DNA of 64,000 nt from Arcobacter sp. CECT 8986 (GTDB lineage Bacteria > Campylobacterota > Campylobacteria > Campylobacterales > Arcobacteraceae): the NCBI RefSeq assembly GCF_004116725.1, contig NZ_PDKG01000001.1:310001-374000 (forward strand), in the 5' to 3' direction. The translations under genes and the position numbers were made by a program. This document shows positions 6,591-13,067 of the stretch, piece after piece; positions within the stretch are counted from its first letter, which is position 1; the number at the start of each line of letters is the position of its first letter. The notes below the pieces were generated by a model. The model worked only from the letters and a program-made list of their open reading frames with translations. It had not been told where the DNA came from and made no database searches.

Positions 6591-7085
6591 TTATAAAATT
6601 GCAAGTGCTTTTTCGTAGTCTGGTTCGTGTGATGTATCAGAAACTTGCTCTGTGTAGATTACTTTACCATTTTCATCTATTATTACAACTGCTCTTGAAA
6701 GAAGACCTTTCAATAATCCAGAAGTAAAAGTAACTTCATAATCTTTCCCAAAATCAGAACGAAATGATGAAGCCACTATAACATTATCGATTCCCTCAGT
6801 AGCACAAAATCTACTCGAAGCAAAAGGCAAATCAGCAGAAACACAAAGTACTTTTACATTTTTATTTTCTGTTGCTCTTTTATTGAACTCTCTTACAGAC
6901 CTTGCACAAGTTGGTGTATCAATAGATGGAAAGATATTTAAAATAGTTTTTGACCCTTTTAAATCTGCAAGTGAAATTTCACTTAAATCTGTTTTTACTA
7001 AAGTAAAATCAGGAGCAGCATCACCCACTTTTGGTAACTCACCAAGAGTTTCGACAAGCTCCCCTTTTCTCATAACTTTTGACAT
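6591..7085 (-). CDS. tpx: thiol peroxidase (2-Cys, Tpx type)
   Basis: The 164-residue length matches the family. The peroxidatic site IDTPTCARSVR has Cys60, and the resolving Cys is Cys94 in SRFCATEG, as in E. coli Tpx. It reduces hydrogen peroxide and organic peroxides using thioredoxin and lies in the cytoplasm or periplasm; no convincing signal peptide is seen. It stands alone with a hairpin after its stop. The start is the ATG at 7085, preceded by AAAAGGAATGAAAA. Confidence 0.95.
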   Translation of the reverse strand: MSKVMRKGELVETLGELPKVGDAAPDFTLVKTDLSEISLADLKGSKTILNIFPSIDTPTCARSVREFNKRATENKNVKVLCVSADLPFASSRFCATEGIDNVIVASSFRSDFGKDYEVTFTSGLLKGLLSRAVVIIDENGKVIYTEQVSDTSHEPDYEKALAIL

Positions 7086-7206
7086 TTTTCATTCCTTTTA
7101 AGTCTTATCTTAGTTTGTATTCATAAAGATTTTATAACTTTATTTATTAATATCTAGTTATTTATAATACTATTTTGTTTTTTTAATAATTCCAATCTAA
7201 AGATTA

Positions 7207-8682
7207 TTATATTTTCTTCAAAACTTCCAATATCTTCACCATAGCCAAAGTATCAAGTTTACAATACTCTAAAAGTGAACTTCTCATCTTCTCTTTTTCT
7301 TCCTCTCTTAGCTTTGATAGATTTGCAAAGGCATTCATAGCTTGGCTTCCATTTTGTACACCTTCTAACTCTTTGTAGGCTTTTTCAAACTCTGGAACTA
7401 AGGCAGGTAATACATACTTGATAGAGTAACTTCCTTGCATACTTGGTGTTACATACCATTTCTTTTGGAAAGGTAGCATTAAGTCTTGCATATTTTCATT
7501 TATGGCTAGTAAGTGAGGACTTAGATTTGAAAAAAGGTTGGCTAGTCTTTTTATCACACCTTTTTCAAAACTCATATTGTAAGCCAATACTGTAACATCA
7601 CTTGGGATATCTTCACATAGCCTTTGTGCTAGTTCATATCTACTATCTACACTATCCTCACTCAAATACTCTTTATGGATTAGCGTACCATCAACATATT
7701 CTATATGAAGTGAGTATTGAAAAGGGATTTGCTCGAAGGGTTTTATACCTTTGTACTCTGGTATTGCTTGTTGGTAGGTTTCAAAGTCTAAGTGATAGAT
7801 TGGGTATGTGAGGTTTTCTAAAAAGGCTTTGATATTTTCTTTGTCTATGTAACTTACTTTTGATTTGTAGTTTTCTACTGCTTGAGCTTGATTTGCCGTC
7901 ATATCAAAATCTTCTGGGATATCTTCTATATTTATAATACCTTGATTGTACAGTTCAACTTGCTTTTTACTTCCTAGATTGAAAATATTAAATATAGAAT
8001 AATCTGGAATTTGTCTTTGAACTTTCCAACAATAGTTTTTAGCATCACACTCATAAGGTTTGTTACATTGTTTTCCTATATATATATCTGGCTCATTTAC
8101 TTTATCTTCTAGGTAAGTTTCAAACTCTTTTAATATGCTTGGAATATTTGACTGTAGATTTTGTACTTCACTTGTGACATCAACTATTTTAAATAGTTTG
8201 TCTAGTTCTAAACTCTCACCTCTTACATACTCATTGTTTATATGTACTACACTTGCACTTTTTATACTAAAACCTAAGTTTTTAAGTACATAATACTGAA
8301 TAGATACATCATGAAGATAGATATCTTTTACCTCCGTAGAACTTTTAACCTCATAGATAGATACACCATCATCTTCTACTTTTAAAATATCTACCATAAT
8401 AAGTATGCCATCGTAATTTAAAGTAGCCTCGTAGATATTTGATACACCCTCTTCTATCCACTCTTTTGTAGTAACTATCATCTCATCATAGTTTGTAGTG
8501 TATAGTACTTCTTTTCCATCAGGAAAAAGCTGGCAAGCTAAGTCTCCTACTATATTCCCTGTTTCAAATATAGCTTGGGCTTGCTCATCTGGTGGTGTTA
8601 AAACACTTGGTTTGTATTTTTTAAGCCAAAGTGCTTTAGGGCATTGGATGCCTTTTGTGTAGAGGGATTTAGATAGGTTCAT
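7207..8682 (-). CDS. Cas4-like (DUF2779) nuclease with DEDD-like exonuclease half
   Basis: The 491-residue protein has two parts. Residues 1-225 look like a Cas4/RecB-type PD-(D/E)XK nuclease with an iron-sulfur cluster: Cys14 in GIQCPKALW, Asp98, the EVK triad at 111-113, and Cys206, Cys212 and Cys218. Residues 295-490 carry a DFET motif (299-302), an AYN-SFE segment and a late YCKLD, as in DnaQ/RNase H-like 3'-5' exonucleases; this order matches the DUF2779 family. The ATG at 8680-8682 overlaps the stop of the previous gene (TAATG), and AAAGGAAA lies just upstream. It is therefore the last gene of the six-gene operon starting at 13067. It may be an effector nuclease of that system or a chromosomal gene that became coupled to it. 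Confidence 0.85.
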   Translation of the reverse strand: MNLSKSLYTKGIQCPKALWLKKYKPSVLTPPDEQAQAIFETGNIVGDLACQLFPDGKEVLYTTNYDEMIVTTKEWIEEGVSNIYEATLNYDGILIMVDILKVEDDGVSIYEVKSSTEVKDIYLHDVSIQYYVLKNLGFSIKSASVVHINNEYVRGESLELDKLFKIVDVTSEVQNLQSNIPSILKEFETYLEDKVNEPDIYIGKQCNKPYECDAKNYCWKVQRQIPDYSIFNIFNLGSKKQVELYNQGIINIEDIPEDFDMTANQAQAVENYKSKVSYIDKENIKAFLENLTYPIYHLDFETYQQAIPEYKGIKPFEQIPFQYSLHIEYVDGTLIHKEYLSEDSVDSRYELAQRLCEDIPSDVTVLAYNMSFEKGVIKRLANLFSNLSPHLLAINENMQDLMLPFQKKWYVTPSMQGSYSIKYVLPALVPEFEKAYKELEGVQNGSQAMNAFANLSKLREEEKEKMRSSLLEYCKLDTLAMVKILEVLKKI

Positions 8683-9377
8683 TATATTTCCTTTAAAAAA
8701 AGTCTTTTTAATTCGGAAATAGGCAGTTCTAAATAATTTTTCTTACAATAACAAGAAGAACATTTTCTCCAATTGAAATAATCTTTTGAAATAATTCCCT
8801 TTTCTATAACCTTTTTTAATTCTTCTTTTAATTTTTCACTAAATACTATAGACTCTTTTTCAATTTGAACTAGTGGATCATCAATAATGATTTCTTCTAA
8901 ATAATCAAATAATATAGGATCTGATGTATTCTTTATCGTAAACATTTTTCTTTGTAATTCATATTTGTCCCAATCTTCTCTTAACTCATCTACACTTTTA
9001 AAATACTTATCCTCTTCTGTGTCAGATTCTTTCCAATAAATAGGATTATTTTTAGTAACATATACATCAAATATATCATCTTTTAAAAATTCTATACTAA
9101 ACTTAAATAAAATAGGACCATAATAATTTTGTCTTGAAAAACGATCATGTAAATCTACTATATCTATAAAAACATCATTCCAAACATCATATTTTTTATC
9201 TAGTTCATCAGAAGTCTGTAAAGTCTGAAATAAACCTTTTTTTTCAACTAACCCTCGTGACATCAAACCTTTATTTTCAATAAATGTCAATGATGTAGTT
9301 AATGTATTAGCATGAAAAAAATTTTTTATATCTTTTTCTTTTAAAAGTTTATATAATTCTATATTATTTAATTTCAC
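8682..9377 (-). CDS. unrecognised 231-residue protein in the nucleotide operon
   Basis: I do not recognise the family. The start is GTG at 9377 with AAAGGAT upstream. The protein is soluble, with no membrane segments. Features are FFHAN near residues 20-24 followed by a hydrophobic helix and KGLMSRG (36-42), a DDVF-like acidic segment (64-77), a YGPILFKF strand (87-94), an acidic linker (118-137), and a C-terminal CSSCYC cluster (206-211). An N-terminal His/aromatic motif followed by a short loop and beta strands is loosely like DarT-type ADP-ribosyltransferases. This is a guess and the catalytic Glu cannot be assigned. It lies 11 bp after the dNTPase and is coupled to the nuclease, so it probably serves the same pathway, perhaps as an effector. 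Confidence 0.75.
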   Translation of the reverse strand: MKLNNIELYKLLKEKDIKNFFHANTLTTSLTFIENKGLMSRGLVEKKGLFQTLQTSDELDKKYDVWNDVFIDIVDLHDRFSRQNYYGPILFKFSIEFLKDDIFDVYVTKNNPIYWKESDTEEDKYFKSVDELREDWDKYELQRKMFTIKNTSDPILFDYLEEIIIDDPLVQIEKESIVFSEKLKEELKKVIEKGIISKDYFNWRKCSSCYCKKNYLELPISELKRLFLKEI

Positions 9378-9388
9378 TTATAAATCCT

Positions 9389-10870
9389 TTATTTTATTGC
9401 TGATAATTCTTGAAATTCTTTTATTGCATATTCATCAGTCATACCACTTATAAAATCTATCAATAAACGCCCTCTATAATACCATTCAAGAATTTTAAAT
9501 TTAAATCCTTTAATGTTTTTCTTATTTAGTTCATCTATAACTTTTTCATAAGAACTGATATGTTTATTTGATAAACGTTTAAAAAGTCTAGATTCAATTG
9601 GTGTATCATTTTTTTCACCATTAATTAGACATAAAAATTTTTTATTTGGTAAAGTTAACAATGGTTTATAGCAATCTAATAATCCTCTAATTGAAGAATT
9701 ACCTTTAAGTTCAAGTAACTCAACTTCATCATCACTAAAAACATGTTTAAATGCAACATTTTTTAATACTTTTAATGCAATATGATATTTACTATTATCT
9801 TCTAATAATGCCTTATTAAAATATCCATTATAGATATCCTTATGATTTTCTAAAAAAACCTTTGCTGCATATTGTACAAGTTCATTAACTAACTGTGTTC
9901 TAAAATTTATGATAAAAGTATTAACTTTTAATCTTTTTACTTTTTTTGCTTTTTGATAATTTTCTTCTGCTATACACTTAATATATATACCCTTACCTTT
10001 ATATTCTTCTTTTGAAGCTTCTTGTACAATTATTTCATACAATTTTTTCAAGGATAAAATACCTTTATCAACAGCATCTTCTAAATCTGCTATACCATAA
10101 GAAATATCATCTGCAGCTTCCATTATATAAGTGAGAGGAAATCTGTGACCATTTTTCATCTTCAATTCTGTACATACTTCTTGAACAAACTCTTCTTCAC
10201 TATAATAGAATCCAGGTTTTTTCTTTAAATAACTAAAAGGAGAACTATTATTTGGCTTATTCTCATAAGCAACTCTAGTATATTTTAAAATTGAAGCGAT
10301 TTGACTATAAGTCAAATTTAAACTTTGTAGATTATGGACTATTCTAACTCCTTGAGCATTTCCCTCAAAATTACATATATCCTTTTCTAGTTTCTTTTTT
10401 AATACTTTTACTTCTGGTTCAAGTAAAGAATTTTGTTTTATGTTTAAAGCTTTGTTAAAACATTTTATTCCTTTTGATTTCATCCAAACATTTATTGCTA
10501 ATTCACCAAAATGACCAAAAGGAGGATTTCCTATATCATGCATTAAACTTGCCATTTCTGAAGTTGAAATAAAGGCTTCTTCTAAGCCTTGCAAATTATA
10601 TTTTTTAAGCTTATTATTTTTCCTTAACTCTTTAAGAATAGATTTTGAAATATATCTAGCTGTTTGTTGAACTTCTAAGGAATGAGTTAACCTACTTCTA
10701 ACAGCTGCATTAATTTCTAAAGGGAAAACTTGTGTTTTTTGCTGAAGTCTTCTAACAGCAGGAGAATTCACAATTCTTCCTCTATTACTTTCTGTGGCTA
10801 AATCAATATCACTACTAACACTTCTTTGATATTTCCGAGTACAAGTTATTTTTTTTCTATAATCAATCAT
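9389..10870 (-). CDS. Dgt-type deoxynucleoside triphosphate triphosphohydrolase
   Basis: The 493-residue protein is close in length and motif order to E. coli Dgt: an RGRIVNSPAVRRLQQKTQV block (30-48), RLTHSLEVQQ with His64, the MHDIGNPPFGHFGE metal site (His111-Asp112), FEGNAQGVRI (168-177) and EAADDISYG (Asp254). Dgt enzymes cut dNTPs, classically dGTP, to the deoxynucleoside and tripolyphosphate. dGTPases of this kind are known antiphage proteins that deplete dNTPs. The gene overlaps the QueC-like gene by 4 bp, and its neighbours also act on purine-like bases and deoxynucleosides. This favours a role in a dedicated nucleotide system rather than housekeeping. Confidence 0.93.
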   Translation of the reverse strand: MIDYRKKITCTRKYQRSVSSDIDLATESNRGRIVNSPAVRRLQQKTQVFPLEINAAVRSRLTHSLEVQQTARYISKSILKELRKNNKLKKYNLQGLEEAFISTSEMASLMHDIGNPPFGHFGELAINVWMKSKGIKCFNKALNIKQNSLLEPEVKVLKKKLEKDICNFEGNAQGVRIVHNLQSLNLTYSQIASILKYTRVAYENKPNNSSPFSYLKKKPGFYYSEEEFVQEVCTELKMKNGHRFPLTYIMEAADDISYGIADLEDAVDKGILSLKKLYEIIVQEASKEEYKGKGIYIKCIAEENYQKAKKVKRLKVNTFIINFRTQLVNELVQYAAKVFLENHKDIYNGYFNKALLEDNSKYHIALKVLKNVAFKHVFSDDEVELLELKGNSSIRGLLDCYKPLLTLPNKKFLCLINGEKNDTPIESRLFKRLSNKHISSYEKVIDELNKKNIKGFKFKILEWYYRGRLLIDFISGMTDEYAIKEFQELSAIK

Positions 10871-11472
10871 AAGTTTTCCTTTTTAGATTCTTCTAATTTA
10901 TCAAATATTCTAATAAATTTATTACATCCCCTACAATTTCCACATGGAATATTCTTTTTATGGCAAGAATGAGCACAAAACAATATAGATTTAGGTATTT
11001 TAGATTTTTCTATAAGTTCCATTGCTGTCATATTAATAGCTGGTGCTTCTACTATAATTCCACCTTCTTGAAAAGATATTAATTCACTTATAAGTTTTGT
11101 AAATTTATCTGTACCATCTTTAAATTGTTCATCAGGTTTTAAAGAACCAATTAAAATCTTTTTAACTTTAAATTTAAGCAAGTACATTGCAGCAAATGTA
11201 ATTAAAAGTTGATTTCGATAAGGCCACCAATCACTATGTGGTGCGTATTCATTAGTAGTTAGATTTTTAGACAAATCACCAGATCCTAATTCAGCACAAT
11301 TAATACTCAATACATAATGTTTTATATTTAATATTTTACATGCATATTCAGCAGCATTAATTTCTGCTTTAGCACAATTTTGACCATAATCAATAGTTAA
11401 TGCTATATCAGGTTTTTTCCAATATAAAATTGAAATTGAATCCATTCCTCCAGATAAAAGTAAAGCTGTCAT
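10867..11472 (-). CDS. QueC-like ATP-dependent deazaguanine-type ligase
   Basis: This is a 201-residue protein of the QueC family. It has the PP-loop SGGMDS (7-12), a YRN motif (85-87, like the VPxRN of QueC) and a zinc site of Cys170, Cys177, Cys180 and Cys183 in SCHKKNIPCGNCRGC. The YPDCR substrate loop of housekeeping QueC is replaced by FKDGTDK, and the protein is about 25 residues shorter. Together with the absence of queD/queE/queF neighbours, this suggests another acceptor than 7-carboxy-7-deazaguanine in queuosine synthesis. QueC-like proteins occur in defence systems such as Qat and type IV CBASS. The gene overlaps both neighbours by 4 bp. Confidence 0.9.
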   Translation of the reverse strand: MTALLLSGGMDSISILYWKKPDIALTIDYGQNCAKAEINAAEYACKILNIKHYVLSINCAELGSGDLSKNLTTNEYAPHSDWWPYRNQLLITFAAMYLLKFKVKKILIGSLKPDEQFKDGTDKFTKLISELISFQEGGIIVEAPAINMTAMELIEKSKIPKSILFCAHSCHKKNIPCGNCRGCNKFIRIFDKLEESKKENL

Positions 11473-12686
11473 TTTGTTCTAGTAACTTCCCAAATTACTT
11501 TATATATTGAAGTAGCAAAATCACTTTCTATAATACAACCTGAACCTTCAAACATCGTCATATTGATAGGAGTTTTATTTTCTATAAATATTACGACAGG
11601 TATCCCTTTAGAAATAGCATAACCCACTTCAAAAATAGTACCAGGATCATAGTCATTAAGTACTGCATATAAAATATTAGATTCATCTACACCTTTCAAA
11701 TCTTCTTTTGCTACTGTATCAGACTTTCCATATCCAACATCATGTAAAGGTGAGAAAACATTTGCTCCAAACTTTTCAAGCTGAAACTTTGCTTCTTCTA
11801 TTAACCAACGATCTGCCATAGTAAAAAAAGGACCTGCTAAATAAATTTTTTTATCAAATTTAGTTTTATCTATTCCTACCTTTTTAAATAAACCTAAATT
11901 ATTTAAAGATTCTCTTTTTATCTGTAAAACTTGGTCATTACAATATAATGCTGTTGCTAAAGAAGCCTTTTGTGCAGCTGCAGTAGGTTCAATTTTTTCT
12001 TTTGCCCATAAATATCCAAATACTGCAACAAAAACATCACCTGAGCCAATTTTAAAAACATTTTCCGTCTCATATGCATCAATATGAAAGTATTTATCAT
12101 CATGAAATAAATATGCACCAAAAGGACCATCTTTTAAAATTAAAACTTCCAATTGATGTGTTTTTTCAAATAAATCTTTTACAATCAAATCAATATTTTC
12201 TTTTTTAGTAAAATTTTTTGCTTCTTCTACATTCATAACAATTGCCAAATGATTAAAAGTAGAACCATTCTCTGTAATCAATGACGGATTATTCTCTGAT
12301 TGTGGATCATAAATTAAATAATTTGCATTAACTATAGGATTTAGTGACTCCATCATTCCATAGCAAATTACAATATCCTCTTTTATATTCATTTGAACTT
12401 GTGTTTCAATAGGATTATTTAGTGTATGTATATTTGGTGCTGATAAAGAATGATAATATTCAAAATTAATCATTTCTGAGGAAAAAAAGGTATTTGTTTT
12501 TATTCTAAAGGTCTTTGAAAAATATTTAAATTCTTTTTCTTTTTCTTTATGAACATAAGAATGAAAACATACTTCTGCCCCTAAACTAGATAAAATAGCA
12601 GATGCTCTGCCACCAGATCCATAATTATAATCCCATTCAGGATATAAACATAATTCTTTATAGAATCCTCCAATAACATTTATCAT
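11469..12686 (-). CDS. PfkB-type kinase fused to nucleoside 2-deoxyribosyltransferase
   Basis: This 405-residue protein is a fusion. Residues 1-270 form a PfkB/ribokinase fold with the anion-hole and base motif GSGD (214-217, Asp217). Residues 279-403 form a nucleoside 2-deoxyribosyltransferase with YLAGP (282-286), the DESNILYAVL segment and DPGTIFEVGYA, in which Glu353 is the expected nucleophile. One half would phosphorylate a nucleoside or sugar; the other would exchange or remove a base on a deoxyribonucleoside or its monophosphate. The glycine-rich N-terminal substrate motif of PfkB is only partly kept (GSGGRAS, 23-29). The gene lies 9 bp after the small Gly-rich gene and overlaps the QueC-like gene by 4 bp. 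Confidence 0.88.
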   Translation of the reverse strand: MINVIGGFYKELCLYPEWDYNYGSGGRASAILSSLGAEVCFHSYVHKEKEKEFKYFSKTFRIKTNTFFSSEMINFEYYHSLSAPNIHTLNNPIETQVQMNIKEDIVICYGMMESLNPIVNANYLIYDPQSENNPSLITENGSTFNHLAIVMNVEEAKNFTKKENIDLIVKDLFEKTHQLEVLILKDGPFGAYLFHDDKYFHIDAYETENVFKIGSGDVFVAVFGYLWAKEKIEPTAAAQKASLATALYCNDQVLQIKRESLNNLGLFKKVGIDKTKFDKKIYLAGPFFTMADRWLIEEAKFQLEKFGANVFSPLHDVGYGKSDTVAKEDLKGVDESNILYAVLNDYDPGTIFEVGYAISKGIPVVIFIENKTPINMTMFEGSGCIIESDFATSIYKVIWEVTRTK

Positions 12687-12695
12687 AATTAAACC

Positions 12696-13067
12696 TTATA
12701 CCATTTCAACAAATACATCAATTGCTGCACCATTAATTTTCATTATTTTAGCAATATATTTATTTCCTTGTTTTATACATTCAATAAGATCAATTACCCA
12801 AGGAGGATTTATCCCACCTACCTGATCATTAGACTTATTAACCAATACAATCATATCTTCATCTAACTCCACTTTTAATATTTCACCTATTTTTACTGTA
12901 GAAAAATAAGTCATTGTTGGACTTATAACTTTTGTTGACCCTTTTAATTTAGAACAACTTTGAAATGAACCTTCTGATGAACCAATTCCTCCTCCACTAG
13001 TTAAACCACCAAGGAAACTACTTCCTCCACCTGTAAATGATCTTCCACTTGAATTACTTCCTGACAT
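12696..13067 (-). CDS. small protein with Gly/Ser-rich flexible tail and beta-barrel-like core
   Basis: The first 35 of 123 residues are almost only Gly and Ser, starting MSGSNSSGRSF. A compact core of about 85 residues follows, with a CSKL motif, KIGEILKVEL, VGGINPPW, LIECIKQG and an alternating beta pattern to the C-terminus. I recall similar small Gly-rich proteins with this core in other bacteria, but I know no assigned function. It is the first clear gene of the six-gene operon, with a good AGAAGGA site before the ATG. The tail could be a flexible tether or the acceptor of a modification made by the QueC-like protein. That is a hypothesis. Confidence 0.8.
   Translation of the reverse strand: MSGSNSSGRSFTGGGSSFLGGLTSGGGIGSSEGSFQSCSKLKGSTKVISPTMTYFSTVKIGEILKVELDEDMIVLVNKSNDQVGGINPPWVIDLIECIKQGNKYIAKIMKINGAAIDVFVEMV

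Follow-up and report, generated by a model that had tools for sequence, protein, structure and literature searches.

A Gly/Ser-tailed HIRAN-fold protein of Arcobacter as probable partner and candidate acceptor substrate of a Cap9-like QueC enzyme

Introduction

QueC-family enzymes have been tied to the conjugation of protein N-termini in defence systems. In the type IV cyclic oligonucleotide-based antiphage signaling system (CBASS), Cap9 conjugates its partner CD-NTase, at the N-terminal Gly, with 7-carboxy-7-deazaguanine (CDG) (PMC11996544, PMC13279940). In the qatABCD (Qat) system, QatB requires an N-terminal MGTS and has been proposed to be modified like the Cap9 partner; a flexible tail with an MGTS or MGGS start is a layout common to QatB and type IV CD-NTases (PMC13279940). 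Here we analyse a 64,000-nucleotide stretch of Arcobacter sp. CECT 8986 (RefSeq assembly GCF_004116725.1, contig NZ_PDKG01000001.1, positions 310,001 to 374,000; hereafter the window), in which a small protein with a Gly/Ser-rich tail (12696..13067, minus strand) is encoded two genes upstream of a QueC-like enzyme. We refer to this small protein and its homologues as SP. Comparative and structural analyses lead us to propose that SP is the dedicated partner of this Cap9-like enzyme, which most probably uses the N-terminus of SP as its acceptor substrate, a reading to which we assign a probability of roughly 0.6. A literature search, which covered few subscription papers, found no published description of an SP-containing cassette.

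The gene trio and its QueC-like enzyme

The open reading frame (ORF) at 12696..13067 is genuine: it encodes 123 amino acids (aa) from an ATG start, with a ribosome-binding site of the AAGGA type 6-7 nt 5′ of the ATG. It is followed by genes for a fusion of a PfkB-family kinase with a nucleoside 2-deoxyribosyltransferase (PfkB-NDT), the QueC-like enzyme, a dGTP triphosphohydrolase (dGTPase), a 231-aa protein and a DUF2779 protein, in that order. The first-pass annotation had placed SP at the head of the operon to which the QueC-like gene belongs, and this is borne out by a gap of 9 nt between SP and PfkB-NDT, followed by overlaps of 4 nt at the PfkB-NDT/QueC and QueC/dGTPase junctions.

Related loci were collected by similarity to the QueC-like protein, not to SP. 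A search of genome contigs alone yielded 76 loci, and an SP homologue lay just upstream of PfkB-NDT in all 76. Loci from plasmids, viral contigs and E. coli, together with that of the window, brought the set to 96, and the trio of SP, PfkB-NDT and QueC was present in 95/96, including haloarchaea and cyanobacteria; the odd one is cut by a contig end. On genomic grounds, the SP-QueC partnership is well supported. The intervening PfkB-NDT protein (11469..12686, minus strand, 405 aa) retains the catalytic-type residues D217 (GSGD) and E353 (D-x-G-T-x-x-E), and the PfkB Asp and NDT Glu are invariant across the family.

The QueC-like PP-loop enzyme (10867..11472, minus strand, 201 aa) matches Pfam PF06508 with an E-value of 5e-25 and carries SGGxDS, DGT and the zinc cysteines CH(x)5CxxCxGCxK. 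As the genome encodes its own canonical QueC elsewhere (255.7 bits) with QueD adjoining, genes for deazaguanine precursors exist outside the operon and the operon protein is an extra, divergent copy; when the genomes of relatives were searched with it, only weaker, canonical-type matches were returned. The cysteine motif together with the PfkB-PF05014 neighbour assigns it to Cluster 4 of PF06508, a subfamily for which both traits have been described (PMC13329287). In our alignment the Glu of the Cluster 4 motif YGQ(x)6E is separated from YGQ by five residues instead of six, possibly a difference in counting.

Three lines of comparison place this enzyme closest to the N-terminal deazaguanylase Cap9, which is its nearest solved relative by profile, fold and tree (PMC11996544; 9nto). 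The best PDB match of a profile built from 37 members was Cap9 (E 4.9e-13), with canonical QueC next. The predicted structure, with a predicted local distance difference test score (pLDDT) of 93, gave Cap9 of the Cap9-CdnD complex 9nto as its top fold match (E 1.7e-10), again ahead of canonical QueC. In the phylogeny, 22 Cluster 4 rows grouped with two Cap9 rows (94/86), apart from 14 canonical QueC. The ATP loop SGGxDS, the zinc cysteines and D119 of DGT, which aligns with the guanine-recognising D117 of Cap9, are all invariant.

The N-terminus of SP

The tail of SP (residues 1-37; 12957..13067, minus strand) starts M-S-G-S and is predicted to be disordered, with AlphaFold2 pLDDT values of 44-65. 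Of the first 35 residues, 23 are Gly (12) or Ser (11), against a mean of 4.4 (s.d. 3.2; runner-up 9) for the same region in 60 window ORFs that do not overlap one another. The earlier description of these residues as almost all Gly and Ser was thus mildly overstated, although the composition lies far beyond the background of the window.

Alignment of the family revealed that conservation is concentrated at the extreme N-terminus. In the 75 copies whose start could be read, Met is always followed by Ser (72) or Thr (3) and then by Gly (73) or Ser (2), usually with Ser-Gly-Gly next, while the remainder of the tail varies both in sequence and in length (13-35 residues). As background, M[ST]G begins 6 of 987 other long ORFs. 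Our choice of start codon favoured an ATG before Ser or Thr; under an alternative rule, which took the last Met ahead of the core Cys, 69/75 copies still begin MSG or MTG, and the six exceptions comprise four with a later Met within the tail that also starts MSG and two that start MSS. The codons at positions 2-3 vary synonymously, and a Shine-Dalgarno-like sequence lies 5′ of 72/75 starts. It had been noted with some concern that removal of Met would leave Ser rather than Gly at the N-terminus; this is correct, and by the sequence comparison M-[ST]-G is a signature of the SP family rather than a defect. In haloarchaea, plasmid-borne homologues start MCGGG or MGGG, and at least two of them have duplicated cores; Gly or Cys at position 2 occurs only there, whereas bacterial copies have Ser or Thr.

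Some loci depart from the usual arrangement. The haloarchaeal plasmid homologues L119:4113-4781, L123:3685-4782 and L124:4143-4784 have tandem HIRAN-like cores, with a very long, acidic tail in L123. Two SP copies are found within one locus at L013:727-1050 and 6933-7259 and at L088:4215-4826 and 6600-6962.

The idea that SP is a partner of the QueC-like enzyme had been offered as a possibility only, and it is now strongly supported by the trio in 95/96 loci, by Cap9 as nearest solved relative and by a tail conserved strongly only at its extreme N-terminus. The likeness extends to the known acceptors themselves: the cyclase of a type IV CBASS locus retrieved as a control starts MGGSGGGFFSNS, and SP of E. 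coli has a very similar start, MSGSGGGSFGGQF. Because of the Cap9-CD-NTase precedent, the MGTS requirement of QatB and this likeness of starts, we infer that the QueC-like enzyme acylates the N-terminal amine of SP; a substrate role, including the conjugation itself, is likely.

The core of SP

The core of SP (residues 38-123; 12699..12956, minus strand), in which C38, G84 and C97 are invariant, is predicted by AlphaFold2 to be compact and beta-rich at pLDDT >90, much as had been expected from the sequence. In a Foldseek search its top 16 PDB matches were HIRAN-fold structures, including 3k2y, HLTF (among them a DNA-bound form) and Rad5, with probability 1.00, template modelling (TM) scores of 0.44-0.57 by query and identities of 10-17%. 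That 3k2y is HIRAN-like is our own reading and is absent from the title of that structure. Viral matches of the SP structure also include HIRAN proteins. Sequence-only searches of Pfam, NCBIfam, PADLOC and the PDB with SP gave no match, and none of 65 family members matched the Pfam HIRAN profile, so that the fold search alone succeeded. The predicted core matches the HIRAN fold, and SP differs from the HIRAN domains of HLTF and Rad5 in standing alone behind an N-terminal tail.

This fold invites an explanation in which SP is a DNA-end sensor or adaptor that recruits enzymes, the Gly/Ser tail being a mere linker. The DNA-bound HLTF structure among the top matches is in keeping with such a role. 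A tail that served only as a linker would have no need to preserve M-S/T-G, however, and the Asn-Pro-x-Asp-type motif with which HIRAN domains bind DNA ends is not evident in the SP alignment. We regard this explanation as most unlikely.

Comparison with known systems

Type IV CBASS provides the closest parallel. In both systems a QueC-family enzyme is encoded in the same operon as a partner with a Gly/Ser-rich N-terminus (MGGSGGG.. in CBASS, MSGSGGG.. in SP). The partner here is predicted to have a HIRAN fold, whereas that of CBASS is a nucleotide cyclase, and neither a CD-NTase nor an effector is found among the operon genes. PfkB-NDT stands in the place of the TGT-like Cap10 of CBASS, and many loci add a SagB-like oxidase, an OGG-like glycosylase, a Dam-like methylase or a dGTPase. 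Type IV CBASS operons may themselves carry an OGG-like gene; our literature searches found no paper that states this.

The resemblance to Qat likewise consists of a QueC-family enzyme and a partner whose long, flexible tail has a conserved start, M-G-T-S in QatB (PMC13279940). QatC, however, is longer (about 400 aa), has extensions and carries Thr substitutions in its base pocket, and it is not among the significant matches of the 201-aa QueC-like enzyme, while the core of QatB is all-helical; the operon contains no KAP ATPase QatA, TatD nuclease QatD or QatC of that length. The cassette belongs to neither CBASS nor Qat, and the closest known kind is QueC-family N-terminal conjugation in defence.

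Several observations weigh against SP as an acceptor and should temper this interpretation. The demonstrated acceptor of N-terminal deazaguanylation is Gly, unlike the Ser or Thr at position 2 of bacterial SP, and three SP copies lack a readable M-x-G start altogether (L028:4434-4766, L068:4445-4756 and L127:4413-4817). The grouping of Cluster 4 with Cap9 depends on a pair of long-branched Cap9 rows, which calls for caution. Furthermore, the Tyr of Cap9 that stacks on the deazaguanine (Y115) is replaced by His or Phe in the QueC-like family, so the ligated group may differ. Finally, a published survey tentatively ties Cluster 4 to purine salvage, and its main text includes no SP, SagB-like or OGG-like genes (PMC13329287). 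The motif-less ORFs at L028, L068 and L127 may reflect a frameshift, an assembly error or real divergence.

An alternative, in line with the published reading of Cluster 4, is purine salvage or small-molecule synthesis: a modified deazaguanine (deoxy)nucleotide would be the free product of the QueC-like enzyme together with PfkB-NDT, with SP as an unmodified regulator, chaperone or structural subunit. PfkB-NDT and dGTPase are indeed nucleoside/nucleotide enzymes. This alternative leaves unexplained why conservation within the disordered tail is confined to its first three residues throughout the bacteria, and why archaea have a related motif; nor does it account for the Cap9-like character of the enzyme or for the sporadic occurrence of the cassette on plasmids and in prophages and islands. 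We therefore consider it unlikely.

Accessory genes and proposed chemistry

Most loci extend beyond the trio. A SagB-like FMN oxidoreductase follows QueC in 74/96 loci, an OGG-like glycosylase whose HhH-GPD site has an invariant Lys and Asp occurs in 79/96, and a D12/Dam-like methylase in 58/96. The SagB-like protein scores 41.5 and 63.1 bits on TIGR03605, below the cut-off of 78.4, and its nearest solved relatives are the SagB-type azoline oxidases CyaGox and BmdC, with which it has a Lys-Tyr in common. Searches of the window locus and the rest of its genome found neither SagB-like nor OGG-like genes, so an oxazole step in this organism cannot rely on these enzymes. The window has instead the dGTPase (9389..10870, minus strand, 493 aa), a recurrent accessory gene present in 18/96 loci. 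Downstream lie the uncharacterised 231-aa protein (8682..9377) and the DUF2779 protein (7207..8682, 491 aa, weakly matching Cas4- and RNase H-like proteins), both on the minus strand and both possible accessories. These two genes (7207-9377) follow dGTPase in the same order in L002, where they travel with the cassette, and may belong to this version of it.

These enzymes suggest a sequence of events that would start with the removal of Met, exposing Ser (Thr, rarely Cys or Gly) followed by Gly on a flexible tail that would reach with its N-terminus into the active site of QueC. There the enzyme would activate CDG with ATP and join it to the amine at the SP N-terminus, as Cap9 does with its CD-NTase. 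PfkB-NDT may next equip the tethered base with (deoxy)ribose and phosphate, the sugar coming from deoxyguanosine that dGTPase would release. Ser, Thr or Cys with an N-acyl group could cyclise upon ATP activation of the amide, and Gly could not; in a second ATP-dependent step, QueC activates an amide on the way to a nitrile. In loci with a SagB-like oxidase, the Ser or Thr side chain could accordingly cyclise to an oxazoline, in parallel with that second step, and be oxidised to the oxazole by the azoline oxidase. The association of Ser/Thr at position 2 with a SagB gene runs in the expected direction (72/16 versus 0/3); as it rests on three haloarchaeal loci, we do not count it as evidence. 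The HIRAN core would display the modified tip for contact with DNA, or with a partner that acts on DNA, in defence against phages or plasmids.

All chemistry after conjugation is speculative. The complete scheme of a protein-tethered nucleotide, in which QueC couples a deazaguanine to Ser and cyclises the oxazoline, the SagB-like enzyme forms the oxazole, NDT adds deoxyribose from dGTPase-made deoxyguanosine, PfkB adds phosphate and the resulting deaza-deoxynucleotide tip of a HIRAN protein is used in defence, is in our view doubtful as a whole.

One may also postulate that SP is a carrier, on whose N-terminus the deazaguanine is built as on a temporary handle and then released as a DNA-acting product, for example a nucleotide or base in modified form that the OGG-like glycosylase and the methylase recognise. 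Amino-group carrier proteins offer a precedent, and the cassette is rich in enzymes of nucleobases and DNA (NDT, PfkB, the OGG-like glycosylase with intact Lys/Asp, the D12 methylase). Because no releasing enzyme was identified and the glycosylase is missing from the genome of the window, we judge a carrier role distinctly unlikely.

Distribution and neighbourhood

The cassette is sporadic and is carried by plasmids, prophages and islands. SP was found in 1/298 genomes of the phylum, that of the window itself; this search bears on sporadicity and not on the question of SP without QueC. In E. coli, 18/5,426 genomes contain most of the query for the cassette, beside phage genes, in a selC tRNA island or at an ssb-yjcB site, and the cassette was found on 24 plasmids. 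The QueC-like protein had no match in phage records. Neighbouring genes include those for AriA/OLD-like ATPases, TIR proteins and ubiquitin-like proteins, and in one E. coli strain, at ssb-yjcB, genes for a UvrD helicase and an ATP-dependent nuclease adjoin the cassette. Sporadic carriage and such neighbours form the pattern of accessory, probably defence, cargo, which is possibly directed against viruses.

Individual settings vary further. The E. coli loci L132:2525-20972 and L131:2997-22319 have the same ssb-yjcB integration site, three recombinase genes and the cassette, and differ in their other cargo. ThiF-family and DUF6527 genes adjoin the cassette at L003:6936-8595 and L122:1264-4072, the latter also with multiubiquitin. 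On Roseobacter-group plasmids, a VUT-family gene annotated as queuosine salvage follows the cassette and an OGG-like gene precedes it (L120:7278-7853, L130:7314-7853), and in the alphaproteobacterial loci L126, L128 and L125 a gene annotated as a restriction endonuclease lies after or near the QueC-like gene.

Implications

In the literature that we searched, QueC enzymes are shown to conjugate a nucleobase to a protein in one case, type IV CBASS, and proposed to do so in one other, Qat. If our interpretation is correct, SP would be a third acceptor, structurally unrelated to the others and distributed from Campylobacterota to haloarchaea. The oxidase, the glycosylase and the deoxyribosyltransferase-kinase that accompany the pair point to chemistry that goes past simple deazaguanylation. 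As the cassette is present in ordinary E. coli strains, the proposal is directly testable, and, if true, it would provide a concrete function for a large uncharacterised QueC cluster that is now filed under purine salvage.
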